DNA of 64,000 nt from Isoetes taiwanensis (lineage: Eukaryota > Streptophyta > Lycopodiopsida > Isoetales > Isoetaceae). The DNA lies in assembly GCA_021234155.1 (NCBI GenBank), contig JAJEKV010000072.1:3122299-3186298 (forward strand), in the 5' to 3' direction. The translations under genes and the position numbers were made by a program. Below the pieces are notes generated by a model that searched no databases, was not told the DNA's origin, and saw only the letters and a program-made list of their open reading frames with translations. Of the stretch, positions 24,150-49,928 are shown one piece after another; positions within the stretch are counted from its first letter, which is position 1, and each line of letters starts with the position of its first letter.

Positions 24150-24329
24150 GTGGTTTGCAAATAAATTATGAGTAACAGTATGGAAGGTCGTCTCCTGATT
24201 AATAAGTGGCATTCTCGGTCCAGTTTCTAGCATACCTCCCTCCTTTCCTTTTTTTTTCCCATATTCCCCTTCATTTCTAGCTCAACTTCCACGTTTCTTG
24301 TTGTTTTCCCCTAAACTTTTCATTATGGA

Positions 24330-26690: not shown

Positions 26691-26699
26691 TGATTTTTC

Positions 26700-27180
26700 A
26701 TGCATTCTTTATCTCCTTCCTTCATCCCTATAGGGATTCTCTCTTGGAATGTAAGGGGAATAAAAGGTCCCTTAAAAGGGAGACGTGCTATTGCACAAGT
26801 TAAAAGTTACAATGCTGACATTATCCTGTTGCAAGAGCTTAAGCTCCCTCGGTTTGATTGTGCATACAGGACTTACCCGAAATCTTCTTCTATTTGGATT
26901 GAATCTAATGGTGCAAGTGGTGGACTTGCCATGATATGGAGGGATGTCAATCATCATTATTTCTACAATAGCCCTTCTAAACTATGGCAGGTTGTTTCCT
27001 TCTCTATCAAAGATTCCTTCTTTGGAATTATCAATATGTATGCTCCTACTACTCCTAGGGATAGACAACTTGTTTGGTTAGAGATCAATAACTGGTTGTC
27101 AGCTCAGGCTAATAAGGAGTGGACTATAGCAGGTGATTTCAAAAATACACCAGTTTGAAACCTGAAGTTGCTAATCAATA
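26700..27180 (+). pseudogene. LINE ORF2 start, APE endonuclease N-terminal half, copy 1
   Basis: The 152-codon frame has ILSWNVRGIKGPLKGR, IILLQELKLP, GGLAMIW, FGIINMYAPTTPRDR and AGDFKNTP (GDFN with Asn to Lys). Closely similar to the ORF2 start at 44053. A TGA follows, with weak similarity continuing for some 20 codons before it is lost. SDH motif and RT are absent. Confidence 0.8.
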
Positions 27181-27446
27181 TAAAAAGAGAACTCGAGCTA
27201 AATCTGCAATAATATAAAAAGAGTAGTGCATAACTATATACATGCAGTTGCTACATTAAAATCATGCAATACACGAGCATTGAGTCCTCTAAAAATTAGT
27301 AGTTACTTGAAATGTGCATCTATAAGGAATTGAGATTAGATCCATGCTGAGGAACTTTATTAACCCTTTATCCATGTGTTTGCATGCTTCTTCCATGCAC
27401 CTACATTGTTTCTAATTTCATCTATTTTTAGAACATCTTTCCACTT

Positions 27447-29010: not shown

Positions 29011-29785
29011 CACCCAAAATAGAAATTGAATTTATACCAGTATGACCCACAAAAAGAATTTAATCTTTTAGCGCCTAGCAAATCTTCCTTGCTAGACCCT
29101 TGAAGCAGACAGTATGTGAATTATTTTTCCTTTAATTTATTGAAGGATGTCAATCTATTTACCATCACATCATGGTATAGTAGCTACATCACATGGAAGC
29201 CAATCCACTACCTAGTCTCGATACTTAGGAACTGTTTTGCATGTTATTATCTAATACATAATATGGCAGATTTAAGGTCTTTACCACAGGACGGTTCCAT
29301 TGTTTTGATGTTACAGAGATAAAGACCAATGATTTACAAGAAATTGATGCATCTGTGACAGAATGATTTGAAATAGCTATGCTATCCATAAAACATACTG
29401 CTTGAGCACCAGATTAGTGCTCCCATGCTCGTTTGAAGGAGGAGGCCCCATTTTCCAAATGGAGTACTCATATTTTGGCATAAACCTGGGAGATTTAATC
29501 CAGTTGTACCATACTACTTCGCATGATTTGATGCCATGCTGCTAAAGTGTCTCCCCTAGGAAATCTGGCAGACCATACTTATCACACCAAGGCCTTCGAA
29601 CCTCGTGATGACTCAGTTTGACTCAGTTCCTCTTTTAAAAGAAAAAAAAAGAAGAGAAAGAAAAAAGCACACATATTAGAATAAACCTGCATTATGACTG
29701 TGTAGCTTCATAACTTCTACAGCCTGGATTAGAAGGCAAAAATGTTCTTGCTACTCTGTACCTAACGTTAAAATATACTTCATTC
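29011..29785. other. No gene; ends in an A-rich tail-like stretch
   Basis: No convincing reading frame. Around 29630-29665 an A/G-rich run (AAAAGAAAAAAAAAGAAGAG) could be the tail of a small retroelement covering 29400-29640. No internal promoter boxes were found to prove it. Confidence 0.35.
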
Positions 29786-29816
29786 CTTCCTTCCTTCCTT
29801 CCTTCCTAAATACTAT

Positions 29817-29852
<36 letters not shown>

Positions 29853-29864
29853 CCTTCCTAAATA
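29786..29864. repeat. Compound microsatellite (TTCC)n-(TCTA)n-(TTCC)n
   Basis: ATTCC followed by about five TTCC units, an interruption, about eight TCTA units, then TTCC again. Likely the worn tail of a (TTCC)n-ended retroelement like those at 30.18 and 59.40 kb. Confidence 0.9.
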
Positions 29865-30170
29865 CATAGTTTTCACACACTCTAGCACAAAGCAAAACCT
29901 TTGAAGCTCATGCAAATGAGCCAAGAAGCCTTGGGAGGCAAACACGCTAAACTAGATAATCTTCAACAAATGCATGTATTATTGATATAAAAAAAAGGGG
30001 GAAAAAAAACATGTGCAAGCTCGTTGCTTGCTCCAGTCGGCTCCTTGGTTCTGGAAAATTTGAGGAACCCTTGTAACCTATCGTGTAAATCTCGAAATTT
30101 ACATTGCAGTTTAGAAATAGCGGAAAAATCTCTTGCTAAAAATATCAATTTTCCTGGTTACTTCCAACAG

Positions 30171-30243
30171 GAATGGAAGGAAGGAAGGAAGGAAGGAAGG
30201 TTCTTTTATCGTCCGCGGAGGCCAATCGGCCTATGGGACCCAA
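30171..30243 (-). repeat. (GGAA)n tail plus hairpin 3' end of a retroelement (minus)
   Basis: About six GGAA units are followed by TTTTATCGTCCGCGGAGGCC-AATC-GGCCTATGGGACCC. Reversed, this is hairpin then (TTCC)n, the same ending as at 59371-59423. The rest of the element would lie to the right, where only short frames remain to about 30390. Confidence 0.75.
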
Positions 30244-30611
30244 ATTACACGGAGTGTGAGTATATAGTTGGTAGGCTAGACTAGACTTTGCAAGAAATGT
30301 GCCGATTGTGCATGAAAAGTCTCCCAAACCAAGGCCACCTCTGACTGCATATCCTATTGGCATGACTCTAGTAACATGAATTATCAAGAGGTTGTAACCT
30401 CAAAGACAGATTTGACGTTGGAACATGGGACGAGCACCTAAAATCTTGGCACTTTTGTCCTTTACCCCCTTTTTCAGTTTGAAATACTTTCTTGGCAAAA
30501 ATTGCTGAAACTTGATCGATCCTGCCTCATTGACACCCGAATTTCTCTGAATTGTGAGCTAGCCTTGTAGAGGCTAGCATTTCATCAGATTTAGAATGCA
30601 GAGATCTTCAA

Positions 30612-30932
30612 ATGGATACTAAAATCTTTGCAATTCTAAAGCAAGAAGACAGACTATTTTGTGGTTTTCTTGTTGGACAACCTTCTGATCTGTGGAATTC
30701 TCTGATCTACAGAGGTGTCTTTCCTGATAACTCATTTCAATTTGAGTACTCGTTTGTTCCAGGGTGTGAAGAATTCAAGATCCAAATTATTGATTCTTGG
30801 CTTGAAGAATTCCTGGGATCCAAGAATATTGAAGCTACTGCTACAATTAGAGCCTACAGTGAACAATTTGATTCCAAAATATTCATCAAATTATATTCGG
30901 AGGTGGAATTAGGAGATTTTTCTGCAAATTAA
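30612..30932 (+). CDS. Small upstream LINE ORF (ORF0-like), split element
   Basis: A 106-codon intact frame starting MDTKIFAILKQEDRLFCGFL and ending VELGDFSAN. It lies 200 bp upstream of ORF1 in a different frame and is homologous to 23856-24149. Conservation of the peptide between two diverged copies, with matched start and nearly matched end, argues for a real product. No known domain is recognised. It might instead be the first part of a longer ORF1 disrupted by a frameshift, but stops separate them in both copies. Confidence 0.6.
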   Translation: MDTKIFAILKQEDRLFCGFLVGQPSDLWNSLIYRGVFPDNSFQFEYSFVPGCEEFKIQIIDSWLEEFLGSKNIEATATIRAYSEQFDSKIFIKLYSEVELGDFSAN

Positions 30933-31132
30933 GTTTCTTAATGATGTTTTCTTCGATAATTCTGGCATTGAGGAGCAATCTTGGTCGTCTCTCTCATAGA
31001 TAGGATCCTGTCCTTTCCTTACCCTGTTCTTTCCCCTTTCTCCATTTCCGATCCTGCATATCCATTTCTGCTTCCTTTTTGCTGCGTTTTCTTTAATTTC
31101 TGGCCTTTGTTGTATTCACCTGCTCTTTTCAT

Positions 31133-32394
31133 ATGGAAAATAAAAAATACCTTAGCCCTAAATCATTATCCTTTCTGCATTCTTTTTCTGCTCTTTCGTC
31201 TGAGGATCAAACCGCGCTCCTACACCACTTAAGCTTTTTTCATAAGCATCCAGATCAATTCATCGTATTTGGAAATTTCGCTAATCTTACAGATACAAAT
31301 CAGGCTATGGATCCAAAAACCCAAAAAACTCCAGTGTGGGATAATTTCTCCAAAGATCCCGACATGTGGGGGCGCCTTCCTGCTCTGGACCCTGTCACTC
31401 AAGTTCCCCTGCCATATGGTGTCCCAAGACCTAATGCTGAGATTCAACCAGATGAGAACTATGATGCAGCATTGAAGGAACTCCGACCTATCGAAAGGAG
31501 CAAGCAGATGATTTACCATGGTATTTCTCTAAATTTGCCCTCAGTTCATTCTAAAATGTCCTCCCTTGTAGACACTGCTGTTATCATAAAAGTCTCAAGA
31601 TCTGGCATTCAACTTGATAAATTATGGTCTTTTTGCCTTAATCTTCAGAAGGGAATCATTATAAATGCCTTATACTGGTTAAATTATCCCTACATAATGG
31701 TTGAATGTGGGAGCCAAAGAACTGCAAATTTTCTCCTTAAGTTGGGCATTCGAACCTTTGAGGCTTATCAATTATCATTTCTTAAATGGGACCCAAGGCT
31801 CAGCTATGATGGTATGGAAAATCTATGTGTGGCCTCTACAACTTTACAGGGATTAAATCCCATTTACTGGAGTGAAGAATGCTTAAAGCTCCTTTTTAAT
31901 TCCATTGGGAATTACATATGCACTGAGTATTCCCCTTCAAGATCTCCCAGAGCCTTTATTCAAATGGACCTTTCCAAAGCCATCCCCACCTCAATCCCCT
32001 TTTCTGATGCCTTTGGCCAAAATTCCTATCTGTCTTTGAGATGGTCAGGCCTACCTCCTCTTTGCCAGATTTGCTCGAAAAGACATTATTGATTTGCTGA
32101 ATGTGACCAGAGAGCAGACAATTCTACTAGATCTGAACCTGATGATCGAACTACTTGCATTCAAAAAATTGACAATATAAACAAAGTCAATGGCAAGCCC
32201 CCATCAGGAAACTCAAATATCTCAAGCTTGACTACAAATGATTGCCATCAACACTTTCAATGGAATCGAGTCAATGGAAGCAAAAAAAGGATCAAGAATA
32301 ATCAGATCAAAAGGTCGGATGTGACTCCTCATTCTCCCAACAAGGATAAGAGCTTTCAATATTCCAATCATAGATCTGATAAACATAACTGTTC
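31133..32394 (+). pseudogene. LINE ORF1, N-terminal part (continues at 42737)
   Basis: Starts MENKKYLSPKSLSFLHSF. Residues about 120-310 form a domain like the DUF4283 RNA-binding region of plant LINE ORF1: LDKLWSFCLNLQKG, LNYPYIMVECGSQRTANFLLKLG, FLKWDPRL, FIQMDLSKAIP. It closes with a zinc-knuckle-like LPPLCQICSKRHY; the following TGA at 32090-32092 interrupts it, and FAECDQ resumes in the same frame, supplying the last Cys. The frame then runs to SDKHNCS, where the 10.34-kb insertion begins. Confidence 0.8.
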
Positions 32395-32514
32395 CACAAG
32401 GCCCCCAAAATTGAATCATTATGATTTTTTTTTAATGGTTTGTTGGTGAAAACCAAATCCATAAATCAGTACATGTTAGTGGGTTCAAAAGTTTACAAAC
32501 CATGTCTAGTTATC

Positions 32515-33100
32515 TAATACGGTTCACCAACATATTTTTCTAAGGTGATAAGACAACATTGTTTTATGACATGGTATTGAAACATGGCAATTTTAATTGG
32601 TCTCTGTAACAATTTAAACTATAGGGTTCATCAACATATTTTTATAAAGTGATAATTCAATATTGTTTTATGACATGGTATTGAAACATGGCAATTTTTA
32701 TTGGTCTATGTAATAACTTAAATTATATGATGTGAACTACTATTTAGTATGTCAAGTTTATTAGACTAGTATTTTATCACATCTATCTTCTTCAATATAT
32801 TGATATGGTAATTTTAAGCGCATATTTCTCATGATACTTTACAGTGATTAATCATCAATACACAAGCGTGGTAAATAATTCTAGTTTAAATATGCTAATA
32901 TGACTTTTTTTTACCTTGTTTTTTCTCCATGGTACTAAAACATAATTATGACAGTTAGTTTTTCTAACAACTTAAAATATCTAACACGAACTAATGCTTA
33001 GTATTTCAAGTTTAATAGAATGGTATTTGATCGCATTTATCTTCCTCAGTATATTGACTTGATAAATTATTTAGATATTTGTAGCAATCAACGGACACGA
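32515..33100. repeat. Left subterminal AT-rich repeats of the transposon
   Basis: A roughly 105-bp unit (GGTTCAYCAACATATTTTT ... GACATGGTATTGAAACATGG) occurs twice at about 32521 and 32626. A larger unit containing AACTTAAA-ATAT, GAACTA-TATTTAGTAT, CAAGTTTA, TAGACTAGTATTT and CAGTATATTGA is found near 32706-32830 and again near 32975-33065. The units diverge by 15-30 percent by eye. Confidence 0.7.
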
Positions 33101-34950
33101 TATACCTAGTTTCTAATATACGATATTTGATAGTGCTTCCTGACCTAGTAATATAATATTAGAGCATGATATTTGGCCTTAATTAGCACAATAAACTTAA
33201 ATGCTTTGAACATGTTTGATCACAAACCATGTTGTTACATGTAATGATTATTAATTGATATTCGTTTATAAAACAATCTCACTCCAATATTTATCATTGT
33301 TTTTACTTAGGAGAAAAAAGAAGACAACATTTGAAAATGCTCATTTACACTTCTTATATTACTAGGAAATTGTGAGTACAATTCTGAAGGACAGATAGAT
33401 AAACAACTCTTTCAATGCAAGGATTCTCTCATTCGCTGAATTCCCATCTATTGCAGCATTTGTACTACATGACTCTGCACCAAAGAGCTTGCTGGATCTG
33501 CATACACAATGTTGAGCAAAAAAATTCAGCATAACAAAAAATAAACTGACTTTGTGTTGTGCAGTCTCTTCAAAAAGTAATAAAAATTATTCATACAAAG
33601 AAATATTACCGCCATTTTGCCAAGATGATTTTGCGTGAAAATGAGCAAATTAGCCATTTAACAAGGACTGCAATTTCTGGCATTTTATCATAAATGCCAC
33701 TACATAGAAAAGATGGGCGACTCCATGATATCCTGAAATTACATTTACATCCCTGTGATAAAAAATATGTCAATTACTAATCATATGCTCGATCAAGCAA
33801 GCCGTAAATATAATCAAACATGCAATACTTGCTGCATTTGGCTAATCAAATGACGTAAGGAAAGCAGGATACAAATCAGAGATCATGTTTTAACACCTTA
33901 TCTACCATATTTCATCCAAAGATCCAGGCTAACACAAACAGCTAGAGAAAATCATGATAGAGGAAATCATGAAAGGTAAAATTCTTCTAAGATGTTCAAG
34001 CAAAGAATAAAATGTGCTACCTGTATGTCATCACTTTCCATTGGTGAGACAGGAGGGCTTGCTGCCAGAGGACCACTCTGATGGTAAACCTTCGAGGATG
34101 AAAAATGGACAGTTCCTACAAATAATTGTCTTTCTTATCACACAACTATTTCAGAGTTGTAAAAAACATTGTGTAATTTGCGACTCAGCCTTGTCTTTCA
34201 GAGCATGCATTCAAGAGCACCAATGCAGGCAGCAAGGCAACCTAAAAACAACAAAGATCAGAGAATGGAAGAGCTGGAGTGGTTGAAGAATACCGTGGGT
34301 TGAAGAATACGTTCCATGACAATTTGGGAAGTGAATATTGATCAGTTTGAAAGTAAAAGGCGGAGACTCGAGTTCTTGCTCCGATCCTCCTTCAAAGATG
34401 TACAATTGCATTATCACGTGGCCTCCTTTGCTAGAGGGCTCTTGTTACCTTTTCCAATTATGGCCTAAACTCGGGACCTTGAAAGGAACTCTAAGGGTTC
34501 TTCCGGAATTTCGTGCTGGATAAGAGGTTTTGAGAAAAAAAAAATGTAGGGACGCGTCTTCATTTATGTTGGCAAGTTGAGAAATGGAACTCTTATCATC
34601 GTGATTGCAATCCAAACTATAAAGCGGTATACTCGAGCATCCATTGACCCAATATTCTTAGAATCTAAAGACCAAAGCTTTCAAACTTTCCTTACAACTA
34701 CGCTCAAATTTAAACTCGGAAACATCCGCCAAGAAACATACCCATTAAAGCTCTTTAGCTTCGTTTTCTAGTTCAACCACTCAAAAGACAAATAACTGGA
34801 AAAGCGTTGCAATACCTCTAGTAAACAGCAGGTCCTCATAAATTCATATAAATTGTTTCATCGTGATTCTTCCTGGGTAAAAGCCAGGGAAAACGCACTT
34901 TTCTTCAAAAATACCCGCATTATTGAGCCCAGATAAATCTCCATCTATCC
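33101..34950. other. Transposon interior without recognised gene
   Basis: Plus frames at 34014-34286 (90 codons) and 34338-34523 (61 codons) are open but match nothing I know and are not supported by splice or homology cues. Otherwise AT-rich non-coding DNA. Confidence 0.4.
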
Positions 34951-34954
34951 GTCC

Positions 34955-35222
34955 ACTTCCTCCATCTCGAATCTGCAGGATTATCATATAATTTCACTCC
35001 AAAGAAGATTGGTTGCGCTTTCTTCTTCAATCCTCGCAGCCCACGGATTCAAGCAAAGGCAAGAAAGGGCCGCTCTTCCAACAACACATCTCCACCAGAG
35101 AGAGGAGAGCTGCAGTGCAACAGGCGACCACCGCCGTCGCCCTAGGCGCTCAAAACCCTAACCATCCTTCCATGAAGTTTTTCCATGATGACAGATCTTG
35201 GAAGTTAAGGTTTGGATTGTGA
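34955..35222 (+). other. GC-rich, leader-like segment, possibly captured gene 5' end
   Basis: In contrast to its AT-rich surroundings, this stretch has a mixed composition and a 69-codon frame from 35013 (MRFLLQSSQPTDSSKGKKGP...REERRAAVQQATTAVA-like). The sequence GGCGCTCAAAACCCTAACC resembles plant 5' leaders. It could be a captured exon plus leader of a host gene; the family is unrecognised. Confidence 0.3.
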
Positions 35223-35395
35223 AACCAAACAAAACGTTAGGGGAGGGTGGCCACGTAAGGTGCCGTACCCAATTAGGGCTCTGTAAAAAGCCTAATCAGG
35301 GCTGCGTGGACTGACCTAATTGGGACTCGCGGAGCTTCTAACGAGCTCGTTCTGAAACTGTTCCCCGTATTGCCCCCGGATAAAATACGGAGAGA

Positions 35396-35512
35396 GCTGT
35401 GGATGGGTGCTCCTACAGATATGGCAAATGCTTCTTTGGTTTCTCGTGATAGATGGTAGAGAGTGGATGGGTGCTCCTACGATATGGCAAATGCTTCTTT
35501 GGTTTCGTGATA
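35396..35512. repeat. Tandem duplication of ~60 bp
   Basis: GGATGGGTGCTCCTAC...GATATGGCAAATGCTTCTTTGG occurs at 35402 and 35464, with small deletions in the second copy (AGATATGG to GATATGG, TTTCTCGTG to TTTCGTG). Confidence 0.85.
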
Positions 35513-35819
35513 GAGCTTCTTATTTTATACATGAAATTTAAACGAATTTGCCTCTAAGTCTTCGTCTCTTATATGGTCTTCGTTTTATTGTATCTTAAGC
35601 CGAGAATAAGCTCAAAATTGATTGACTTTTGTAGAAGATCTTTGAGAAGACAAGACAATCACATGGATTGCACATAGAGACATCGAGGTTCATCCAAGTT
35701 TGTTTTATTTTGTGAAGAATTTAGGAGACAAAAACATAGAGATATTTATTTGCCTTTCTAATCCTTTATCTTTGGTTTTCGTGAACGGATATGGATTGAA
35801 GAGATGACTGATAACCCTT

Positions 35820-36770
35820 GTGAAGAGCCTGGCACGAACAATATTTGGCGTTTTACAGAAGCACGATGTAGTGTCATGGGCTGCAATGGTTGCAGGTTAT
35901 GTGCAACATGGGCATTGTTAAATTGCTTTGATTCTCTATGAAAATATAAACTTAAATGTTTAAAGCTTGCACAACAATATGATTTTAAGCATCCTCAAAG
36001 CATGTGCCATCATGGGAGCAGTTGAATATGGAATGTTAGTTCACAGCCAGATCACTAATAGTGGTCTTGAGTTAGATTCCGTTGTTGGTAGCTCCCTTGT
36101 TGATATATACTCTAAACGTGGTACCTTGAGGAGGCACAAAATATATTTAATAGACTGCAAAATCTGTATTGGAGTGCTCGATTATAGGTTATACTTGGCA
36201 TGGAGATGGGCTCAGGTGTATATTAGAACTTTCAAGAAATTTGACATAAAAATCTAAGATTAGAGACAGGCATTTCGAGTATTTTAAAGGCATATGATGA
36301 CATGGGAGCGTTAGGGTATGGAAGCTTCTTTCATGATGAGATCATAAGAAATGGACTTGTCTGATATAGTAGTCATGACTGCTCTTGTTAATATATAGGC
36401 CAAGTGTGGAAACCAAGACATAGCGAGATGGTTATGGGCTGAAATGCTTGCGTTATCAGAAGGCGCAGACAATGTGAGCTTAGTTGAAGAATGCTTCAAT
36501 GGCATGGAGAAAATGTGCCTTAAGCCAAATGATGCAGTCTTACTAGCATTCTTCCTGCATGTAGCCATGCTCGCTTTGTTGTTGAAGGTTGTTGTTACTT
36601 CAGGTCAATGATAGAAGAACATGAACTTACTCCTGGCATTAATCAAATTAGCGCATGGTTGATGTTCTTGCACATGCAGGATATCTAAATGATGCAGGAT
36701 ATTTTCTTCAGGCTTGTGAACATGATGACAACATGCAGAACTTTGACTTCTGAGTATCATAATAAATTTC
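35820..36770 (+). pseudogene. PPR pseudogene carried inside the transposon
   Basis: Order of recognisable pieces: ARTIFGVLQKHDVVSWAAMV-AGYVQHG near 35835-35920; SILKACAIMGAVEYGMLVHSQI, then GLELDSVVGSSLVDIYSKRG at 35985-36130; ILKAYDDMGALGYGSFFHDEIIRNGL near 36275; an AKCGNQD/ALVNI block near 36390; PACSHARFVVEGCCYFRSMIEEHELTPG near 36550-36640. These are PLS-type PPR motifs running to the last repeat before an E domain. Many stops and frame changes exclude function. It is not obviously a direct copy of the 7-10 kb gene, since wording differs throughout. Confidence 0.75.
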
Positions 36771-39110
36771 TGTGTATTACCTTGAGATATCAATGGCAAC
36801 ATCGTTCTTTTGTTTAGATGTTTGTAAATGTTTCCGTTTGGTAAATGTCCTTCTGTTCAGATTTTTATGAATGTTTCAGATTTGTAAATTGCAATTTTAC
36901 TATGCTAAAACGGTTACAAGAACATTTTGGTAATTGTTAAACATTGTTGTCAAATTAAAGATTGTTGCTAATAAATATTTATCAAGTTTATTTAAAAAAA
37001 ATATTGTTTATCCTTCAACTTTTTTTATGGACGATCATGGCAGCCTTCAATGGGCACCCTAGTATCCTATGGGCTGCCACCTCCTCACCGGTGGTACCAA
37101 TACCCCCACCACTTTGACACCTTATAACTTGAGGTGGCATTGTTAGATTGGCAAGCAATTTAGTTTTTCATATAGGCAATCTTGTTGGGCATGTTGCCAT
37201 TTCATATGCATAACCATTAAAATGCTTACATGATTGCAATATTAGTTTAAGCACTTAAGCGCAAACCAATGGACACCCTCCCTAAAACTGAAAAAAAATA
37301 ATAAACCTTGTTGTTAAATTCCCCAGGTTAACGTGTATGAACATGTCATGACTATGGGCTATGATGTTAAAGATTTAGGAAGAGGAAACTAACTCGGGAC
37401 AGAGGGAGGGTTTTCGAGGGAACCGGCCCCGGCCGGCAATGCATCCTAGAGTGGTGGCGGCTGGAAGCACCGCCATAAAGGGCCAATTTAGCCTAGAAAC
37501 CCATGGCGACCGTGAGTTTCCCTCCGTAACCTATTGCATTTTGTGAACCTATCTATAGTATCACCGACCTGCAGTTGTGCCCTTGGTCGTCCATCCTGCC
37601 TTGCTTCAAAATGGTTCAATGCAATAAGTTGGTCAATTTTTTGCAAAGAAGGTTATGACATGCTTTATTTGAAATCCATGTTTGTTTAGGAGGTGAAGCT
37701 ATTACCAAATTGAACATGTTGAAGCAAGTACTTCCTACATTGTATTAATAGTTTTCAAGGTATGCATTACAATGTTTTCATCTTTTACTTCTCAATGTTG
37801 TACCCATGCTTTCTATAAAGGTGTTGAAAACCAATTTCCCTTGGGATAACACAAAAACTACTTATGCCCTTCTGCATTGGCACAAATGTAAAGTTGGTCT
37901 AAGCGGATGTAACACCATGAGCCTCATGAAGAAATGCGGCAATTGAAAGAGGGGTGTATTCAAGGTGAATTTGGTCTAAATTTCAAAAACACCATGAGAA
38001 ATGGCTTAAGAAGAGACCTGACAAATCGATAGTTTATAGACACATACTTAAATAATACTAGCATTTCTGACTTATGCCTTAGACCGTAGAGAAGAGGCAT
38101 TACTATTTTTCCATGTTTTGCACCTTTCTTTAGGAATATCTGATCTAATGTCTTCCAGACTCTTTTGTCCGTCTGTATATTTTTTTGATGGGGTCTAACC
38201 GCATTATCCACATTATACTATGGTTTTCCAACCATAGCCATGAAGTCAAAATATGTTCGACTCTAGAATCCGTTTGATCTTGTAACATTGAATAACAGCA
38301 CCACCAGATTCACAAAATGCCTCTTTGAGATATTGGACCCCTTTGCAAATTAGGCAGCATCGCGGATCTTTAAAGCAAAGTAATACCACAACTATATAAG
38401 CCATCAATATTACTAGGCAAAACAAGTGTATCCACAAACCTTAACACATGAGTAGATTTCTCAAAGCTTAACACAGGTGCCTCTGAAGGCCTAACTGAAC
38501 TTTCAATTGCATATGCTATTTATGACACAACTTGCATTAAAGGACCTGCACGTTGCACATAGCTTGAATCAAATTTGTTTAAATGGCTAAAACTGCATAC
38601 CTCAAGGCTTTGAAAGAACACCCCAATTATTCAGATTGCCCTTATTATGGCATGGTTTCTAAATTCGAAACGATACGTATGCTTAGAGCACCCATATGTT
38701 CTCTGCTCACATCTAAAAGTATGAGGAAGCGGCCATGAGATGTTAACAATATTAATGAAGTGAACTCTACAATCCATAAACACTATATAGAATCGTAGGT
38801 TGTTTGAACTTTGCATAGATGTCTTATACAAAGTTTGAGAATGATGTCTTTGTGAACAAGTTGCCCCTTATTATGGTATGATTGCTAACTTCGAATCGAA
38901 AATTATGCTAAAATCAATATGTCCTAATGTCACAAAGTCTCTGAGATACATCCCAACTCTAACATCAACAATATAGGGAATCGATAAGTTCTAATGTCAC
39001 AAATTCTTGAGATGCATCTCAACTTAATTATGCAGGCAATGCCACATGTAAATATGTGGGAAGAGATGCGTAAAGCGAGGGCATTTGCTGACTACCAGTC
39101 CTATAACGAG
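36771..39110. other. Transposon interior, no gene; short direct repeats
   Basis: No supported coding sequence. A direct repeat CCCTTATTATGGYATGRTTKCTAA (fragments at 38639 and 38863) and another, TYCTAATGTCACAAA (38922 and 38988), are visible just before the 320-bp array. Confidence 0.4.
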
Positions 39111-40930
39111 TTGGGAAACAAGACAAGTTTGGATATAGTACACCCGGGGAGGGGCTTTTTCTTCCTCCCTTGGGGTTTCTCTTCAAGCCCTCGAGGGAAC
39201 CCCCGCACGCAAGTTCTCGAGCACGCCCTTGGTGGTAGGGAAGGCTCTTGAATCCCAAACCCCTACTTAATTCAATAGGGTTTAAGTATCGAACATCAAA
39301 ACAGCTCCGTTTGTTAATCCGACCGTATCAAAATGGTAGTTAGGAAACATCCTCGAAAAGAAAAACTGGACATCCACCACACGAATGTGCCAATTCCCAA
39401 ATTCCCCCTTTCTCGGCCTTAAGGGTACGGCAAGGAGCAGGACAAGTTTGGATATATAGGATGCGGGAGGGTGTTTTCTTCCTCCCCTTGGGGTTTCTCT
39501 TCAAGCCCTTGAGAGAACCCCTCGCATGCAAGTTCTCGAGCACTTATGGGTGGTAGGGAAGGCTGCGAATCCCAAACCCCAAAATGAATTCAATAGGGTT
39601 TAAGTATCGACATCAATTCTCGAGGCAAGGGCTGCGGCAAGGAGTAGGACAAGTTTGGATATATAGTACGGGGAGGGTGTTTTCTTCCTCCCCTTGGGGT
39701 TTCTCTTCAAGCCCTCGAGAGAGAACCTCTTGCGCAAGTTCTCGAACACTTCGGGTGGTAGGGAAGGCTGCGAACCCCAAACCCTACAATTTAATAGGGT
39801 TTAAGTATGAACATCAAAACAGCTCCGTTTTGCTAATCCCCGATCAAAATGGTAGCTAATGCGAGGAAACATTCTCGAAAAGAAAAATCCTGGACATCCA
39901 CCAACACGAATGTGCCAATCTCCAAATTCCCCCTTTTCGAGAGGCAAAGGGCACGACAAGGAGAGGACAAGTTTGGATATATAGTATCCAGGGGAGGGTT
40001 TTTCTTCCTCCCCTTGGGGTTTCTCTTCAAGCCCTCGAGGGAACCCAAGACGTATGAAGTTCTCGAAAGCACGGTGGTAGGGAAGGCTGCCGAATCCCAA
40101 ACCCTACGAATTCAATAGGGTTTAATTATCGGGGTATCAAAACAGCTCCATTTGTTAATCCGACCGTCAAAATGGTAGCTCATGTTTGAGGAAACATCGA
40201 AAAAAGAAAACTGGACATCCAGCTTGCCGCGATAATGTGCCAATCCCCAAATTCCCCTTTCTCGATGCAAGGGCTGTGAGGAAGGAGGACAAGTTTGGAT
40301 ATATAGTACCTGGGGAGGGTGTTTTCTTCCTCCCCCTTTGAGGCATCTCTTCAAGCCCTCGAGAGAACCCTGCATGCAAGTTCTCGAGCACTTCGGTGGT
40401 AGGGAAGGCTGCCGAATCCCAAACCCTACGAATTCAATAGGGTTTAAGTATCGGGGCATCAAAACAGCTCCGTTTGTTAATCCGACCGTCAAAATGGTAG
40501 CTCGTGTCCGAGGAAACATCCTCGAAAAGAAAAACTGGACATCCACTGCACGAATGTGCCAATCCCCAAATTCCCCCCTTTCTCGACGTAAGGGCACGGC
40601 AAGGAGCAGGACAAGTTTGGATATATAGTACCTGGGGAGGGTGTTTTCTTCCTCCCCCTGGGGTTTCTCTTCAAGCCCTCGAGAGAACCCTGCACGCAAG
40701 TTCTCGAGCACTTCGGTGGTAGGAAAGGCTGCCGACTCCCAAACCCTACGAATTCAATAGGGTTTAAGTATCGGAGCATTAAAACAGCTCCGTTTGTTAT
40801 CCGACCGTCAAAATGGTGGCTCGTGTCCGAGGAAACATCCTCGAAAAGAAAAACTAAACATTCACCACACGAATGTGCCAATCCCCAAATTCCCCCCTTT
40901 CTCGACGCAAGGGCACGACAAGGGTTTAGG
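39110..40930. repeat. Satellite array, ~320-bp unit, about six copies
   Basis: Anchors GACAAGTTTGGATATA occur at about 39121, 39439, 39649, 39966, 40288 and 40610, and a truncated one at 40917. Spacing is 318, 210 (a short unit), 317, 322 and 322 bp. Each unit contains AACAGCTCCGTTTGTTAATC, a hairpin CGAGGAAACATCCTCG, AATGTGCCAATCCCCAAATT, TTTCTTCCTCCCC, an imperfect palindrome from CTCGAGAGAAC to GTTCTCGAG around TGCATGCA (for example 40358-40388), and AATTCAATAGGGTTTAA. The last three units are the most alike. Long minus-strand frames here are by-products of the repeats. Confidence 0.92.
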
Positions 40931-41879
40931 AATTTCATATGTGGAAAAGAGATGGCAGTCTTGGGATTGTCTCTTAAGGGTATTAAATGTTATGAAGGAA
41001 GGTGCAGGAAAAAATATCTGCTTCTTCTTGATTGAAGAACCTTCTATTTGAGGTACTTGAGCTTAGTTCATCTCCTTTTGTTTTGTAATCATAAAAATCT
41101 ATTATGTTTACTCTAAGTTCAATCGCTTGCCATAATGTTAAGTTGGCTGCGATGTTTAGCTTTACATTTGGAGCGGTTTAATAAGCTAGCTATAAAATTA
41201 TTTATTACCTTGACATTGTAGTAGGTTTTTGAGCTAAGCGTTATAAAATTGTTAGTTAAGATGGTGTCGATGGTATCTCTATATTTACATATGAGTGGTC
41301 ATTATTCCTGCGCTAAATTCCTCACAAAACAATTGCCAATTTCTTGGCTAAATGACATTACATGGTTTCTTACAATATTAAGTAACGGAGGCAAAGCATT
41401 CACCTTTGGTTTTTGACGTTACACTAATCACAAATTTCTAATATTGCTACAAAGTTACAAGCTAGATATCAATTGACTACAAGGTTTCTTTTATTGCGAA
41501 GCAACACATTGATTTTAATCTATGTCATTAGTGACATGTTGTTTATTTTTCTTTTGTGAAATTTATTGATAAGGCTCATTTGATTCTTCGAAGCCTACGC
41601 GTATGCTTCCTATATATTTAGAAGCCTTGCATCTTTATTAAGGCTCAAAGCAGTTGCATTTGGAAAAATACAATATTAACAACATGATTAACAGAAGAAT
41701 AAACTATTAACGAGCATAGTAAACAACCACGTAAAGAAAACCTTAGGAAATTTGCAAATTCTAACATGGTTCTCAAACTAATAAGAAGAACGCGGTAGAA
41801 TACAAATTTGTGACAACTAGCACGTAAACGCATCTGAAATTATGATACTAAAAATGTATATAGAAAAATCATTCCATTA

Positions 41880-42630
41880 AATTAATGATGATTTTCAAAG
41901 ATCATCATAAACTCTAGAATTCATAAGTTAAATATAGTACGAACTAGGAATGGTTTTGCAAAATCAAGATGTGCTTAAAACACATCTTCTAAACTATTGA
42001 TGATTTCAAAAAACAATTGTACGATTGTAGAATTCATGTAAGTAAACATGATATGAACTAGCAATGATTTTGCTAAAAAACTATACACTTAAAAACAATC
42101 TCACAAATTAGTTATGATTTCTATAAATCTTTGAATTAGTACAAAAAATACGATATGAAGCACTATTGGTCTTGCAAAATCAATATATGCTTAAAATACA
42201 TCTTCTAAACTATGGATGATTTCAAAAAACTATTATATGATTATGGAATTCATGTAATTAAACATGATATAAACTATTAGTGATTTTGTTAAATCAATCT
42301 ACGCTTAAAAACAACCTTATGAACTAATAATGATTCCTAGAAACTAGTGTAAAATTTTGAATTAGTACAAAAAATATGATATTAGCCACTACTGGTTTTT
42401 CAAAATCAATATATACTTAAAACACCTCTTCTAAACTATTGATGATTTCAAAAACCTATTGTACAATCGTAGAAGTCATGTAATTAAACAGGATATGATT
42501 TTGATAAATCATTGTACATTAAAAAACAACCATACAAACTAATGATGATTTCTAGAAACTACTGTAAATTTATGAATTAGTACAAATAATATGATATGAA
42601 CCACTATTGATTTTGCAAAACTAGGAAGAA
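41880..42630. repeat. Right subterminal AT-rich satellite, ~220-bp dimeric unit
   Basis: Blocks TTCTAAACTAT-GATGATTTCAAAAA recur at about 41988, 42205 and 42430. Between them lie related half-units (AAACTAATGATGATTTCTAGAAAC, GAATTAGTACAAA-AATATGATAT), giving an A/B dimer of about 110 + 110 bp over 3 periods. It sits next to the right terminal inverted repeat, as subterminal repeats do in CACTA elements. 40931-41880 holds no gene. Confidence 0.8.
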
Positions 42631-42736
42631 CACATGATTTTTCTTTATATTTTGTATCGTCGTATAAAAAAATCACATATATACTGGTTTTCATGCTAAT
42701 TTTTTATACAAGTTCATTTTTGGGGGCCTTGTGTTC

Positions 42737-44165
42737 TGGAGTTAAGGTTCTACAGAAATATGACAAGTTCAAAGACAAGGGGAAAACTCCAATTTTGCAT
42801 AATAGTGTGCAAACAGAGAAGCTTCATGACCTACTAGACCAAGCGGTTGCAGACTCTCAAGATCTTCAAAAAATGCAGACTCAGGTCATGTCAGATCAAT
42901 TTGGACCTGCAAAAGTTAAGAATGTTCCATTAATTATTAAAAGCCATGCCTCTCAACAACCAGCTATTCTCAAAGGATTGAGCCTATGTGACAAGATTTT
43001 GGCAGAAAGCTACAGGGTTGATAAAGTTCAAAAGAAATTTGAGCCACCACAAATGGCTCAAATAAAAAAGTCAACTCCATATAGCAGCTCAACTCAGTTG
43101 AATTCATATGTGGCCAAATCCATCAAAAACAACACAGCTTCCAACACTTCGGGTACTCCAGCTTCTACAGCAAAACATATATCTGCAGATCTTCTTCTAG
43201 CAAATCAAGACAGAGCTATCCATGAACCAACTTCATTTGCTGCAGACAAAGTGAATCAAGATCAGCAGGTAGACTTACAAGACAACCTACTTGACAAAAT
43301 TGATTGTTCCAATCAATTCCAGGTACTTGCTAATTTAAGTGTTGAACAAGAGTCTGACTTATTACTGAGCAACAATGCAGATATTGACCATGTTACCATC
43401 CCTTCCTCTGAAACTAATGCTCTCCCCTCTTGTCTCATTCCATCCATCCCTTTAATTGACATACAAAATATACCCTCCTACTCATCAAACCACTCTTCAC
43501 CTATATCCAAGGAAATTGCAGAGCAGCTTGCCACTTTGCAGGATGGATTAGCTCAGGATGTAATCAGTACAAAGAGTGTGTCATCTGAAGAACAGGCAGA
43601 TAAGGATACTGGTATAGACACTCGAGACCTTGTGGCAGTAAGCTTGGAATTAGAAGGAGACAACATGGACTGCTCGAAGTCCCACATCTCAAACTCTCAA
43701 CCTGACTGCAACAATGTAGATCCATCTACCAGGCAAGTACCTCTCTTTTATAATTGCAATGAACTAGTGTCTGAAGATGATACACTAAATATGTTTGAAT
43801 TTGTGCCTGGGGGGTTTTCTGACACTGAATATGATAGTGACAAAGAAAACTGGGGAAATGAGAATTTTCTTTCTAATAATATCTCCACTACAAAGATATC
43901 TAAGAATAATTCAAGAGCTAAGAAAAAAAAATATCTCCCAAACCTGATATTTCTGCCTATCTGCATAAGACTCCTGCTGGAAATACAAGAAGCAAGAAGA
44001 ATAGGAGAAATAGATAACTCCACTGCCATTCCCCTTTCCCTTCCTTTTCTCCATGAAGATTATGACCTGGAATGTGAGGGGTATGAAAGGCCCCATCAAA
44101 AGAAGGAGAATAATTTCCCAGCTGAGACTTTACAAGGTAGACCTCATTTTATTGCAGGAAACTAA
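42737..44165 (+). CDS. LINE ORF1, C-terminal part (continues from 32394)
   Basis: Open for 476 codons from the end of the transposon to TAA at 44163. It begins GVKVLQKYDKFKDKGKTP. It is low-complexity and polar, rich in Ser, Asn, Gln and Asp, with no clear domain, as expected for the disordered tail of plant LINE ORF1. The last section (EDTLNMFEFVPGGFSDTEYDSD) is acidic. Together with 31133-32394 the restored ORF1 would be about 896 codons with one internal TGA. Its end overlaps ORF2 by 113 bp in another frame. Confidence 0.75.
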
Positions 44166-47100
44166 GCTTCCCAAGTTTGAAAGCTCTTGCCTTGCAGATT
44201 GGATCCAACCAGGTGCTTCTTCCACTTGGATTGAGTCCACTGGTACTTGTGGAGGACTCATCATGATATGGAAAGCTTTGCCTCATGTCTTCTTCTTTAA
44301 TAGCCCTAGTAAGTGTTGGCAGGCAGTTGTCTTTTCCATCAACAATTCCAATTTTGGAGTTATCAATATCTATGCTCCTACTTGTCCAAAGGATAGAGAA
44401 AATCTTTGGCCTGATATCTTATCTTGGATGTCTTCCCAACCTAGAGTTATTTGGATAGTCTCTGGTGACTTCAACAACACCCCAAACTGGGATATGAAGT
44501 TAGGAAACAGAATCAACATGTCTACAAATGAAAGAATCAATTGGGACTCCTTCATCTCTGAGCTAAATTTGATCCATGTCCCCTCCTCCACTGCAATATA
44601 TACCTGGTCAAATAAGCAAAAAAACTCGAATAGGGTATTTTGTGCTTTAGATAGATTCTATGTTTCCACCTCCTCATGTTCCTTTTGGGATAACTGCTAT
44701 GTAGTGAGTGATGAGTCTATTTCCATCTCTGATCATCAACCACAGTTTTTACATACCAAACATCTTCTGCATCTTCCAAGGGAAGGTAATATTCCTTTTA
44801 AGCTAAATTGCTCCCTTCTTGGTAATGAACAGTTTTGCAGTGACTTCAGGAATTTCTATATATCCCTGCAGGATAATCATACATCTACTAGTGCTTCTAT
44901 GAAATCCTTTTACTCAAAGATTAAGAAAGTTAAGTCCTGGATTAAAAATTGGTCTCAGAAACTTCATAAAGAAAAGACTAGGCTCAAAGAAAATTACTTC
45001 GAGCAAATGAAGGATATTAGAGGCCAACTTCAACATCATCCCCATGATCTAAATCTTCAGATTGGAGAGGAGGTGTTAGAAAAGAAAATTAAATCTATTG
45101 AAGAGTTGGAAGCTAGGAGCTTTGCTATCAAATGCTCCAGGTTTTTCTACAGATCTGCCAAAAACAGATTATTGAAAAATTCCATCCTTAAAGTTCACAC
45201 TGATACTGGTGCATGTCTAGACTCTCCAAAAGATATCAAATATTTCTTTCAAGAGAAATATGCCTCCCTGTTCAATGGCAGAGATTCTAGTTCCACTACC
45301 TCTACCTCAAAGAAAGATGATTTTATTTCCTTGATCAACCAGATCATTCCCAACTCATGTAATCTTATGAATGATTCTATTGCTGCCACTCCAACTGAGC
45401 AGGAAATTTTCAAGGTCCTCTTGAGTTTTAGCAAGGGTAAATCCCCTGGACCAGATGGCCTGCCACCTGAGTTTTACATTTGCTTTTGGGATATCCTAAA
45501 GACTGATGTGGTAAATTTAGTGCATGGCTTTTGGAAAGCAGAGCATCTACATCCATCTATTTCTGCTGGCTTAATTACTCTTGTTCCAAAAATTGATATG
45601 CCATCTGCCTTTTCTGATTGGAGACCCATATCCTTGACCAACTCCTCATATAAATTATGTGCCAAAATTATTGCCAATAGGATCAAACCTTTCCTTCAAG
45701 AGAACATCAATATTAAGCAATCTGCCTTTCTTCCTAATAGATTTATTTTGGATAACTATATTGTTGCTATGGAAGGTTTACACTGGAATAGGGTCTCTGA
45801 TCAAGATTGCATTCTTCTTAAACTAGACTTCAAGAGGGCATTTGATTCAGTTAACTGGGACTTCCTTGAATTTGCCATGCATAAAATTGGATTTAACCCC
45901 AAGCTCATTTCTCTAATTATGGGATTAAACACTAAGGCAAACTCGGTTGTTCTAATAAATGGCTCCCCCTCTAACTTCTTCAATCTTTCTCGAGGAGTAA
46001 GACAGGGTTGCCCCTTAGCCCCCTACCTGTTTCTAGTGGTTGCTGAACTCCTCACAAAGGCAGTTGATTATCATCAAGAATCTGGCAATATCACAGGTCT
46101 AAATCTCCCTGACAATCAAGGCAGTTTAATTCTATCTCAATATGCTGATGACACTTTTGCTTTTCTGGATTCTAATTCAGAAAACATTTCTAAATTCTTA
46201 GGCATAATTGACCTTTTCTCTGCTGCATCTGGAATTTATCTTAATGTTGCAAAGAGTGTGATTGTTGGAGACATTCCTGAGAATTATATTTGTGATATTA
46301 AGGTCCTTGGCACTATGCAAGCAACTAGGCTTCTTGGTATGCCTTTGTCACTCAATCCCAACATCAAAGGCTTGTGGGACCCAATCCTCCAAAGGATCAG
46401 GCAGAAGCTAAATTATTTCAAAAGTTCCTTATCTATGGCAGGTCGTACTATCATTGCTAATTACGTACTTGCGACTTCTCATATTTATTTTCCTCCTCGC
46501 TCTAGTTGTTCTAAGTGCATTTATAATGAGCTGGAAAAAACCATTAGGAAATTCATTTGGGGAGGAAATCATTGATGGGGCGGGATATCATTACGGATCC
46601 AAATCTAATGGAGGACTGGGATGCAAAAATTTATATCTGCAAGCTTGTGCCTTAGCAGGTAAGTTTGTTTGGAGAACTTTATCTGGGAACAATTCTGTAG
46701 CTTCAACTTTCATTAGGTATTGGCTCCATTGCACATATCCTGAAGGTCATCCAAGTGTTAAACACTGTCTGCCAGAGTCAGCCCTCACTTACTTGCACCC
46801 AGGTAGGAATTTCTCTCCTCTGATGCATAACATAATCAAAGCTTGGAATATTGTACAGAGATGTTATGACATCCCCTCAATTCAAGAACTCAACTTGAAC
46901 TCCTCCTTATTCCCGGGTCTCCCGGCCAGGGATAACAATGGTAACATCCCTGCTTTAAGGCATCCTAAAACTTACAGGAAATGGTTGGATCTTGGTATCA
47001 CTCATGTTAGACACCTAATAAGAAATGGTCATGTTATTTCCTGAAATAATCTTAGAAGGCTTCTTCATGGCACTTCAAGTGACAAATCTATTCTCAAACA

Positions 47101-47865
47101 CTTCAAGAGCATCTTGTCACAGTCTGCAAATCTGTTAGTCAATCAGGATGATTTTACCCTCAAGATAAATGGCCATGTCAAATACAAAGTCAGCTTAGTA
47201 TATAATCTGCTTAATCAAAGGGACACCTCTGCTAAAGCTGGGCTTAAATGGTCTATCTCAGAAAGGGAATGCAAGTCTTTATACAATAATGTCTGGAATT
47301 CTTACTGTCCACCAAAAGTCAACTTTTTCATCTGGTTAATAGCCCATAAGAGTCTCCCCAATCTTGTTTCTCTCTCAAGAAAGATTCCTACTGTTCAACC
47401 GAGGTGTCATTTGAATTGCACACAAGATGAATCCATGCAACACATTTTCCAGTGCCCCAAACTCCTGGAGTTTTGGTCATGGTTCTACAGAAAGTTCAGT
47501 GATATGTTTGTTGGGCAACCACATGGTAATTTGCTACAAAGATATATTGAATAATGATGCTTTTTGAATACCATTGTCTTCTTTGCTTTATGGAATATTT
47601 GGAAGTCTAGAAACGAGGGATTGTTTATGGCAAGAATAATTTTTCTATCTTTTGGATTAAGATGAACTTTCAACTAGATTTGGAAGCCTTTGTATGCGCT
47701 CACAAGAGCAAATTGGGTGACAATTATGAGGAAATGGGACTCGTTGGTAAATTTATAGGGGTTTTCAATTTGTATAATTCTGTTTTAAATGTCATTAATT
47801 CTAATGCTCCTTTCTCCGACCTTATTGATAGAATATCCGGAATTCAAGGAGAGGGAGGGGAATAA
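44053..47865 (+). pseudogene. LINE ORF2: endonuclease, reverse transcriptase, zf-RVT
   Basis: The first 840 codons (44053-46575) are open. Endonuclease: MTWNVRGMKGP, LILLQETKLP, GGLIMIW, FGVINIYAPTCP, VSGDFNNTPNWD, ISISDHQPQF. RT: GKSPGPDGLPPEFY, LVPKIDMPSAFSDWRPISL, LLKLDFKRAFDSVNWDF (motif A), RGVRQGCPLAPYLF (motif B), SQYADDTFAFLDS (catalytic YADD), then LLGMPL and SMAGRTIIANYVL. All catalytic residues are in place. A frameshift near 46565 (after FIWGGN) moves the reading to the frame ending 47044. TGA there is followed in the same frame by a block to 47554 with FFIWLIAHKSLPN and CTQDESMQHIFQCP (zf-RVT). A last shift gives ALWNIWKSRNEG and the tail to about 47865. Confidence 0.9.
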
Positions 47866-48742
47866 GTTCGACACAATCTTGACTTACCAAGAAGCTACAC
47901 ACTCACTGCAACAACTCGGGGTCTCAAATTTAGAGCCACCAGGCCAGATGCAAGCTTCGGATGATATCATGTTATATAAGGTTAGAAGTACCCGATAATG
48001 AATCTACGGGCTAAGATATACCGCGAGAGAAGTGGTGCAAATGTATTGCTGTTGAGTTTTTTGTTCATGTACCATTTCTCCTTTGAGAAAGACAACTCAA
48101 TGTACAGAGAACTATATTATTCCCACAAAATGCTCTCTGACCTTTATGGCACTTTACTCCTGCTAATGGCCAAAGAGGATGTTCATCAGCTGCTCATGGA
48201 AAATGGATCTGAGCATAACAGTTACAAGTTTGGTACTGACTCAGGGTTTTACTGGGTCTACAACAGAATCTTTGACCAAATCATGAAAGCCCCTTAACCA
48301 TCCTATCAGCTTCCTTTTTCCAGCCTCAATCTCTATCTGCAACAGTACTTCTTGCCATAATCCCAGTTGCTCAGTACATAATCATTCTCTTGTCTAACAC
48401 TTCAAACAGGTACTTGGAGATCAATTTTGTACTTGCAGGATTTTGGAGCTCGTTTGGCCAAATGGTAACCTTCAATCCAGCAACTGTTCCAGCTTACTCA
48501 ACTGGTGCAAATCAGCATTTTGGATAATTTTCTACTGCAGAACAACAGCACTTTCTGGCTGTACTTTTGGTGTCACGTTACTGTTTAAACATTATGCTCA
48601 TTCCATGTTGATACTTCTTTATTTTAACTCTAAGATGTAACTAATGGGAAATCTTGTTCCCTCATTGGTTACACATATGTATGGCTTTTATTAATTAATG
48701 GAAAAAACATCTCTTAACCTCAAAAAAAAAAAAAAAAAAAAA
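47866..48742 (+). other. LINE 3' UTR and poly(A)
   Basis: Contains one open frame of 99 codons at 47998-48297 (MNLRAKIYRERSGANVLLLSF...) with no recognised domain; it may be chance. The 3' UTR ends CATCTCTTAACCTC followed by about 22 A (48721-48742). The nearby AATGGAAAAAAC may serve as a weak polyadenylation context. Confidence 0.7.
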
Positions 48743-49928
48743 GACAGATTTTGAAAAGGCTTAAGAAGCCATGTGGTGCCCTAAAACAATGCATTATATG
48801 TATACTTATTCTTCGCACACTTCTTAGAGATGGAAAAAAGGATCACTTGTAATGCTCTGTATTCTCTCTACAAAGCTCCAATGCACAAATCCCGTAGCAA
48901 TTGAAAGCTTCTAGTGCAAAAATTTCAAATATTGCTTATGCTGAACTAAAGTTTCTGCTTGTAAAAGCTGCCTACTTTTAGTAAAGATTATGCATGCCCA
49001 ATGTTGCAAATCCATTGAAACTACTTTCTAGGTAGGTAATAAACCGTGTTTGAGAAGAATACCAGGAATGAATGAAGGCGAACATAAGTGTAGCATTGCA
49101 AGCAATTTCTAGCTCCAGCTATCGTGAGGCTGCAACTGAGCTGCAACCCTAGCATCGGACTTCTCCAGCAAAATGATATATGAAGAACTAGCAAATATCG
49201 TCCCCTGGTATTTTCCATTTGTATGCTAGAGCATGTTGACAAATGCAAACCCTGAGCTAAAACCATAAGACTTCTCATGAGGTTAAGTTAAAAAACGGGT
49301 ATAACCTATATTAGAAGCTCTGAACAACAATTTGGTGGCGAGCAACAAAGAGTATGTATTCAATTGTCAAGATGTATGCCTTGACGTCAAGACTGTAGCA
49401 ATAATCTTATCTTACCATGTATAATTAATTACTTTAGAAAGATGCATTTGAATATTCTCTTTAGATGCTTGCTTTAAAAAATGGCACGTATGGTGTTTGG
49501 GGTTTGGGGGGGGGGGATGAAAAAGGGCTCATGGAATGCTTATAAAATTGCTACCTATAGGCAACGTTAATGGCAACAATTAATGCATGCCACCTCATGC
49601 GATGTCAATACAAGAGGTGGCGCATTCACATAAGGTACTTTTTAGCCAACACCAACCATTGGATAAAAGTGGGCAGAGAAATCTTAGCCCTTGAAAATTT
49701 TACAATAATGAAAGGGAATTAATTGCACCAATTTGATGACACATGCGAGGAAACATTATGTTGCATTGAATTGAATTGACTCTTATCATCCACGAGAACC
49801 AAAAGGTTTATGGAGCCCAATATGCGAGCAAACCCACTCATCGCTTAGGATTCACCCTCCCCAAAAAAAAAAAAAAAAATACATATCAATACGATGATGC
49901 AGAATTTATTTCATCTCCCTTGATGAAA
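48743..49928. other. Intergenic, no gene
   Basis: No supported coding sequence. A G10 run is at about 49507-49516. A degenerate hairpin end (ATCATCCACGAGAACC-AAA-AGGTTTATGGAGCCC, 49786-49820) belongs to the same family as 30.2 and 59.4 kb, in the minus orientation. An A-run of about 17 follows at 49863. Confidence 0.5.

Follow-up and report, generated by a model that had tools for sequence, protein, structure and literature searches.

A stretch of 64,000 nucleotides from the genome of the lycophyte Isoetes taiwanensis (contig JAJEKV010000072.1, positions 3,122,299 to 3,186,298; hereafter the window) contains a 10,339-bp transposable element lodged in the first open reading frame (ORF1) of a long interspersed nuclear element (LINE). 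Judging from its boundaries and its relatives elsewhere in the genome, it very probably belongs to a large EnSpm/CACTA-superfamily family with CACAAGG...CCTTGTG ends, in which it represents a non-autonomous copy with a rearranged interior, and it is most likely a disabled passenger which transports scraps of other genes. An earlier sequence-only reading of the window had proposed a CACTA-like transposon splitting a LINE; beyond this, it is found here that the element has lost its transposase, has gene pieces inside it and carries a second, nested transposon. The insertion is delimited as follows:

32392..32394: left copy of the target-site duplication TTC, read directly from the sequence.
32395..42733, forward strand: non-autonomous element of the EnSpm/CACTA superfamily, 10,339 bp, defined by its terminal inverted repeats (TIRs), its duplication and other genomic copies.
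32395..32415, forward strand: 5' TIR CACAAGGCCCCCAAAATTGAA, whose opening CACAAGG is present in 21/21 copies.
42713..42733, reverse strand: 3' TIR, from comparison of the inverted repeats and of the copies.
42734..42736: right copy of TTC, read directly.

The sequence CACAAGGCCCCCAAAA occupies 32395-32410 and its exact reverse complement 42718-42733, with TTC on both sides, so that the boundaries given by the sequence-only reading are correct to the base; when extended, the inverted repeat matches at 20/21 bp. No duplication of 2 bp or 4 bp fits the flanks at this TTC site, and none of 5 bp is present in them. When the window was simulated 60 times with a first-order Markov model, CAC-starting perfect inverted repeats of 12 bp with a 3-bp duplication, separated by 0.5-20 kb, were encountered zero times, and those of 10 bp with a mean of 0.33. 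Contig collections of viruses and prokaryotes yielded 0 matches to the 21-bp terminus but, not being plant collections, are little informative, and an Rfam scan of the window returned nothing at the gathering threshold.

A search of the genome (1,658,258,908 bases in 1,110 contigs) with the element's first 100 bp returned 649 first-look candidates, 40 of which were scored, all at 96-100% identity, thereby placing the copy number at 40 at least. Twenty of these matches were fetched, leaving out one listed match without its first five bases. All 20 begin exactly with CACAAGG and have differing upstream flanks. The 5' end CACAA is thus seen in 21/21 copies, window included, and the 3' terminus ...CCTTGTG in 10/10 complete elements, an invariance which is partly the product of selection, as the copies were chosen by 5'-end similarity and the 3' ends by a pattern allowing at most three mismatches. 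Nine of the 20 could be read through to the 3' end (seven within the fetched 9.9 kb and two after a short extension), and each of these has a matching 3-bp duplication, namely GTA, AAA, TAA, TAA, AAT, AAA, TAT, TCA and TAT. Together with the TTC of the window, this amounts to a 3-bp duplication in 10/10 complete elements, with lengths of 6,487-12,808 bp, and to a 4-bp duplication in 0/10. The sequence-only reading had called for a search for further CACAAGG...CCTTGTG elements with 3-bp duplications and would have been abandoned if no other copy shared the termini; nine such loci exist outside the window, and the termini are not unique to it. Inward of the ends, the copies have a 5' stretch of 0.1-1.2 kb in common (far more in the case of locus L010) and, where it was read, a 3' stretch of about 0.6-3 kb, and their middle is highly variable. 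LINE-like ORFs, recognized by eye, occur at L014, a zf-RVT match at L020 and a reverse-transcriptase match at L027.

Two of the complete, duplication-flanked copies, L024 (10,935 bp, TCA) and L025 (12,808 bp, TAT), carry a match to the tnp2 transposase (Transposase_21, PF02992), with E 5.3e-5 and 22.9 bits in the former and E 2.2e-5 and 24.2 bits in the latter; a longer read-through of L024 gives E 1.1e-4 and 22.0 bits. These matches lie within the E < 0.001 threshold applied. With regard to the DDE/D triad and the C(2)C and H(3-4)H motifs of EnSpm/CACTA transposases, a CRRC sequence is visible in the transposase ORF, and for one piece of the L024 transposase no relative of solved structure was recovered at E <= 1. 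The tnp2-matching part of the gene was found in 2/20 copies, and parts of the transposase gene, as searched with the L024 and L025 pieces over the first 9.9 kb of each copy, in 7/20. The window element retains the following vestige:

40890..41048, forward strand: relic of the tnp2 C-terminus, about 50 codons, the first residues overlapping the end of an internal array (see below); 83% identical over 53 aligned residues to the L024 transposase ORF, E 1e-20.

Longer C-terminal remnants are present in L026, L021 and L019, and L009 and L018 keep a short tail like that of the window. These remnants form a deletion series, from most of the gene through half of the last frame to the last 50 or so codons, and on this account the window element can be recognized as descending by internal deletion from an element with a tnp2 gene. 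The prediction that an autonomous copy with a Transposase_21-type gene would be found is accordingly borne out as regards the gene, in L024 and L025, and falls short as regards the profile scores, which stay below the curated cut-off, and the frames, which are interrupted.

The interior of the element holds two gene fragments, one of them inside a nested element:

34012..34512, reverse strand: part of an Auxin_canalis (FORKED-like) gene, interrupted by a gap the size of an intron (PF05703, E 0.0023, 18.3 bits, below the cut-off).
35238..35239: left TA duplication of the nested module, established from the empty site CGTTAAAACTG in L012.
35240..37282, forward strand: nested TIR element of 2,043 bp, GGGGAGGGTGGCCA...TGGACACCCTCCC, with a TA duplication.
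35826..36751, forward strand: decayed fragment of a PLS-type pentatricopeptide repeat (PPR) gene, interrupted along its aligned path by 12 stops and one or more frame changes.
37283..37284: right TA duplication, from the L012 comparison.

The FORKED-like region is common, in whole or in part, to 5/20 copies (L009, L010, L011, L012 and L015), and in L009 it matches PF05703 with E 2.1e-6 and 28.3 bits, above the cut-off of 24.8. No TIR-element wrapper is seen around this piece, which could be a direct capture. In Pfam scans of whole frames over 33100-41900, a weak match to Auxin_canalis (E 0.037) was the sole outcome and the PPR relic went undetected; a second round used shorter segments of the element, with the internal array represented by four of its ORFs. 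Weak Pfam matches to SiaC (E 0.0061), VMAP-M1, Toxin_20, DUF5945 and POM121 were taken as chance.

The origin of the PPR fragment needs closer consideration. It lies between the TIRs of the CACAAGG element, and captured gene pieces are known from CACTA elements elsewhere (PMC8978399, PMC8903248), as would be expected of a strict Pack-CACTA element which had itself captured a PPR gene from the genome. However, the fragment is wholly contained in the 2,043-bp module, which has its own inverted ends (12/13 bp matching) and TA duplication, is absent from sister copies and recurs elsewhere in the genome with TA adjoining its end. L012 presents the empty site, and L013, L014 and L015 are likewise without the module, with small differences adjoining the site and, in L015, another insertion a few bases on; L010 carries the module at the same site, at 93% identity. 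The left end of the module has 25 genomic matches, 20 of which start at its first base, and TA adjoins the module end in 8/8 loci read, among which L031/L032 and L036/L037 share flanks and are not independent. The inverted ends, the TA duplication, the empty sites and the further genomic copies therefore identify a separate TIR family carrying PPR DNA. Direct capture of the PPR sequence by the CACTA-like element was rejected, given the sister copies without the module, and the strict Pack-CACTA origin is quite improbable: the PPR piece came inside a second, smaller TIR element and then travelled along.

Other insertions and PPR sequences were also observed. A Mutator-type transposase (Mutator-like element, MULE) at L015:4019-5375 has inserted close to the A-rich spot used by the PPR module, and a PPR ORF of 501 aa lies at L024:7398-8900 (reverse strand), between parts matching the element's 3' region. 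Within the window, PPR gene sequence is included in a tandem duplication of about 4.7 kb (8186-12948 and 13765-18537, 93-96.5% identical), a third, partial copy of which is found at 22890-23590. Among the best 120 of 7,733 matches to a PPR gene of the window, Ceratopteris, Adiantum and Diphasiastrum are among the top named ones, at 34-46%, and mosses and gymnosperms are also represented.

The remaining internal architecture consists of repeats:

32517..32727, forward strand: 5' subterminal tandem repeat, 104 bp x 2 (88%), with a related block recurring to 33068.
39121..40923, forward strand: array of six units, of which five measure about 320 bp and the remaining one 207 bp.
41889..42620, forward strand: 3' subterminal array, from 41951 in units of 102-114 bp, each opening with a TGATTTTGCAAAATCAA-like palindrome.

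The TGATTTTGCAAAATCAA-like motif occurs with at most 4/17 mismatches in the 3' array units, and 12 sites with at most five mismatches occur in the rest of the window. Nine of the 20 copies also contain sequence resembling the six-unit array, and none was found in L024 or L025. The indels within this array cluster at CpG: 16/34 indel events touch the 67/315 near-CpG columns of the five full units, a count which favors clustering, as an indel touching any CpG column was scored as CpG and the short unit was left out. Such CpG-linked indels may be nanopore consensus errors at methylated sites or real change.

Several observations weigh against the assignment of the window element to an EnSpm/CACTA family that spreads gene pieces, and these have to be set beside the above results. 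First, the duplications outside the window come from the 9/20 fetched copies read through to the 3' end, and with a looser end pattern of four mismatches three extra sites appear in L024 and L025, none of them with a duplication. Second, the tnp2 matches are below the Pfam curated cut-off of 28.6 bits, that of L025 requires stops to be read through, and the transposase frames of L024 and L025 are both interrupted, at different places, some of which may be introns. Third, the FORKED-like fragment is above the PF05703 cut-off in 1/3 sister copies scanned (L012 gives E 0.32 and L015 no match), and its E of 0.0023 in the window is little better than the 0.0061 of the presumed-chance SiaC match. 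Fourth, in the window copy, neither k-mers nor local alignment revealed a subterminal motif common to both ends above shuffles, in either orientation, in contrast to Tgmt*, where one motif is repeated at both borders (PMC2613891). Finally, plant CACTA elements are described as having CACTA ends and a 3-bp duplication (PMC4158355, PMC2613891), whereas the window family has CACAA. This last point lowers the case for a canonical CACTA element, not that for EnSpm membership as the name is applied in PMC12730594, namely to elements with 5'-CAC..GTG-3' ends and 3-bp duplications.

Some of these points could also be read as favoring a superfamily other than EnSpm whose ends are of CAC type, for instance Transib or Chapaev. 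Elements of these two groups generate target-site duplications of 5 bp or 4 bp, and the CACA with which Transib and recombination signal sequence (RSS) ends begin is similar to CACAAGG. To this may be added the tnp2 score under the curated cut-off and the account in PMC12730594 of the whole clade as having mostly CA..TG ends and duplications of 2-5 bp. However, the duplications of the complete elements are uniformly of 3 bp and never of 4 bp, the sister transposase matches the tnp2 profile PF02992 at E 2e-5, and the very combination of ends and duplication length seen here is classed as EnSpm in that same source. A Transib- or Chapaev-type identity is consequently highly improbable. Rather, the proposal that CAC ends with a 3-bp duplication fit CACTA/EnSpm gains support from the 10/10 duplications and the tnp2-like gene in sister copies, as does that of a divergent or unnamed family from CACAA in 21/21 copies, the weak tnp2 match and the fact that no description was found.

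The element interrupts a LINE with the following parts:

30402..30413, forward strand: left copy of the LINE duplication AAAGACAGATTT, read directly and matching 48740-48751.
30414..48742, forward strand: host LINE, about 7,987 bp without the insertion, with A21 at 48722-48742; defined by its duplication, its poly-A and homology to a related LINE.
31097..32394, forward strand: left part of LINE ORF1, DUF4283-like (Pfam, E 3e-4, below the curated cut-off).
42737..44165, forward strand: right part of LINE ORF1, in frame with the left part when the flanks are joined.
44014..46575, forward strand: LINE ORF2, endonuclease (PF03372, E 6.7e-9) and reverse transcriptase (PF00078, E 1.8e-33).
47045..47554, forward strand: C-terminal zf-RVT part of LINE ORF2, in another open frame (PF13966, E 1.7e-13).
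48740..48751, forward strand: right copy of the LINE duplication, at the end of the A21 tail, read directly.

The two LINE halves are one insertion. When the element and one TTC are removed, the joined ORF1 is open over 908 codons except for one stop at residue 332 (about 32090) and reads Cys-Ser-Gly at the junction (letters ...DKHNCSGVKVLQ), which confirms the in-frame join reported by the sequence-only reading; if both TTC copies are kept, the joined flanks are still in frame, as ...NCSSGVKVLQ. Further, the 12-bp duplication AAAGACAGATTT brackets both halves from outside and its left copy sits 40 bp before the start of homology (30453) to a related LINE. Of random 9-mers drawn from downstream as a control, 2% are found again at some point within 29000-31100, and taken alone the duplication is moderate evidence for a single LINE. 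TAACCTC also precedes both copies of the duplication (30395-30413, 48716-48751), perhaps by chance, or perhaps because the true duplication extends beyond 12 bp and includes an A tract that has expanded. The related LINE, which spans 23701-27187, has the counterparts of both halves in the same order with no insertion between them: the spacing of the well-matched flanking blocks is 1,590 bp in it versus 1,631 bp in the joined LINE, and that of weaker blocks is 746 bp versus 832 bp. The observed/expected CpG ratios of the left and right parts are 0.31/0.08 in the host LINE and 0.32/0.05 in the related LINE, on small counts (14/4 and 10/2 CpG, respectively), and the idea that the uneven CpG content of the halves indicates two elements was rejected, as the related LINE has the same gradient. 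Over 42737-47550 the ratio in the host LINE is 0.08-0.10 versus about 0.3 in its 5' part, and a third LINE (18800-22600) has 0.64.

It could be countered that the halves are two separate LINE insertions, or that the junction is an assembly error, as the Isoetes taiwanensis assembly is nanopore-based (PMC8566536) and the indels of the approximately 320-bp array cluster at CpG. Against this stand the in-frame join, the LINE duplication and poly-A outside both halves, the collinear related LINE with its matching CpG gradient and the same termini with duplications at nine other loci, such that this alternative is hardly credible; the single LINE proposed earlier is upheld, and the separate origin of the halves, which would have undone that proposal, does not obtain. 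The stop in ORF1 and the distribution of ORF2 over several open frames imply that the host LINE was defective already at the time of insertion or has decayed since. Lastly, there is next to no chance that the window element is autonomous with its transposase overlooked: Pfam scans of stop-interrupted frames are indeed insensitive, whole-frame scans having also missed the PPR relic, but with the sister transposase pieces as query the element shows just the last 50 or so codons.

The following order of events may be proposed. The LINE would have been in place before the CACAAGG element entered, and the PPR-bearing TA element would have entered an ancestral CACAAGG element, as shown by the presence of the module at an identical position in L010; a CACAAGG copy carrying the module would then have jumped into LINE ORF1, duplicating TTC. 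The heavy decay of the PPR piece, set against the few breaks in the LINE, makes it probable that this piece was no longer functional by the time of this last step. In mechanistic terms, the tnp2-type transposase of a sister copy would have bound the ends of the window element, excised it and inserted it. Such cut-and-paste mobilization in trans is the most likely reading, given that the copies have their termini in common, that their duplications are uniformly 3 bp long and that the full copies have a transposase gene. We infer the action in trans, the cut-and-paste movement and the acquisition of the FORKED-like piece, as DNA, from a host gene.

Two further features of the window lie apart from the LINE and its insertion. 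An ORF with a NIF-type phosphatase match (50817-51497, E 7.7e-8) overlaps CCACCA-type tandem repeats, and a two-piece inverted repeat, 5527-6156 and 51494-52414, is 72-74% identical across about 45 kb and probably represents another dispersed repeat family.

These findings place in a lycophyte an EnSpm family with non-CACTA ends, in which transposase-bearing and deleted copies exist side by side, and the deletion series shows directly how the non-autonomous copies arose. The three-level nest, moreover, yields a clear relative order, with the PPR carrier entering the element and the loaded element the LINE. Searches seeded with CACTA would miss this family. Among the entries listed in the literature searched there was no description of it, and the main text of the article on the Isoetes genome (PMC8566536) nowhere uses the terms CACTA, EnSpm or DNA transposon. 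The family may be under-annotated, given that the published repeat library was cleared of plant-protein-like repeats (PMC8566536). As far as searched, then, the kind of element and its mechanism are known, and the CACAAGG family, with its variant terminus, appears undescribed. Tentatively, and at a little under even chances, it could be a distinct EnSpm lineage of non-seed plants, with a divergent transposase and end recognition sequences not shared between its two ends, which acts as a high-copy carrier spreading host gene pieces and transposons through the Isoetes genome.

In comparison with known systems, the window family shares with the EnSpm/CACTA elements En/Spm, Tam1 and Tgm the CAC...GTG ends, the 3-bp duplication, the long AT-rich subterminal repeat regions and the presence of a tnp2-type transposase in full copies alongside deletion derivatives without it; besides its CACAA terminus, it departs from them in its sub-cut-off transposase match and in the lack of a motif common to both subterminal regions. 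The Puccinia EnSpm families, compared by description only, are likewise assigned to EnSpm by CAC..GTG ends and 3-bp duplications with weak similarity to known EnSpm proteins, but are fungal and carry TET/JBP genes (PMC12730594). Jozin of Chenopodium also has host gene fragments in its 5' part and, in some copies, a tandem array near the 3' end; its monomer, however, is of 171 bp, the family is angiosperm and the array is found in copies which keep Transposase_21 (PMC8978399). The 3-bp duplications of the window family differ from the 5-nt duplications given for the rice and maize CACTA set (PMC8903248). Pack-CACTA or Pack-TYPE elements (PMC8903248) similarly keep TIRs and duplication, have lost the transposase and contain host coding DNA, and the window element does have its family's TIRs and a duplication with no transposase gene; unlike in those elements, its PPR piece came with a nested element.

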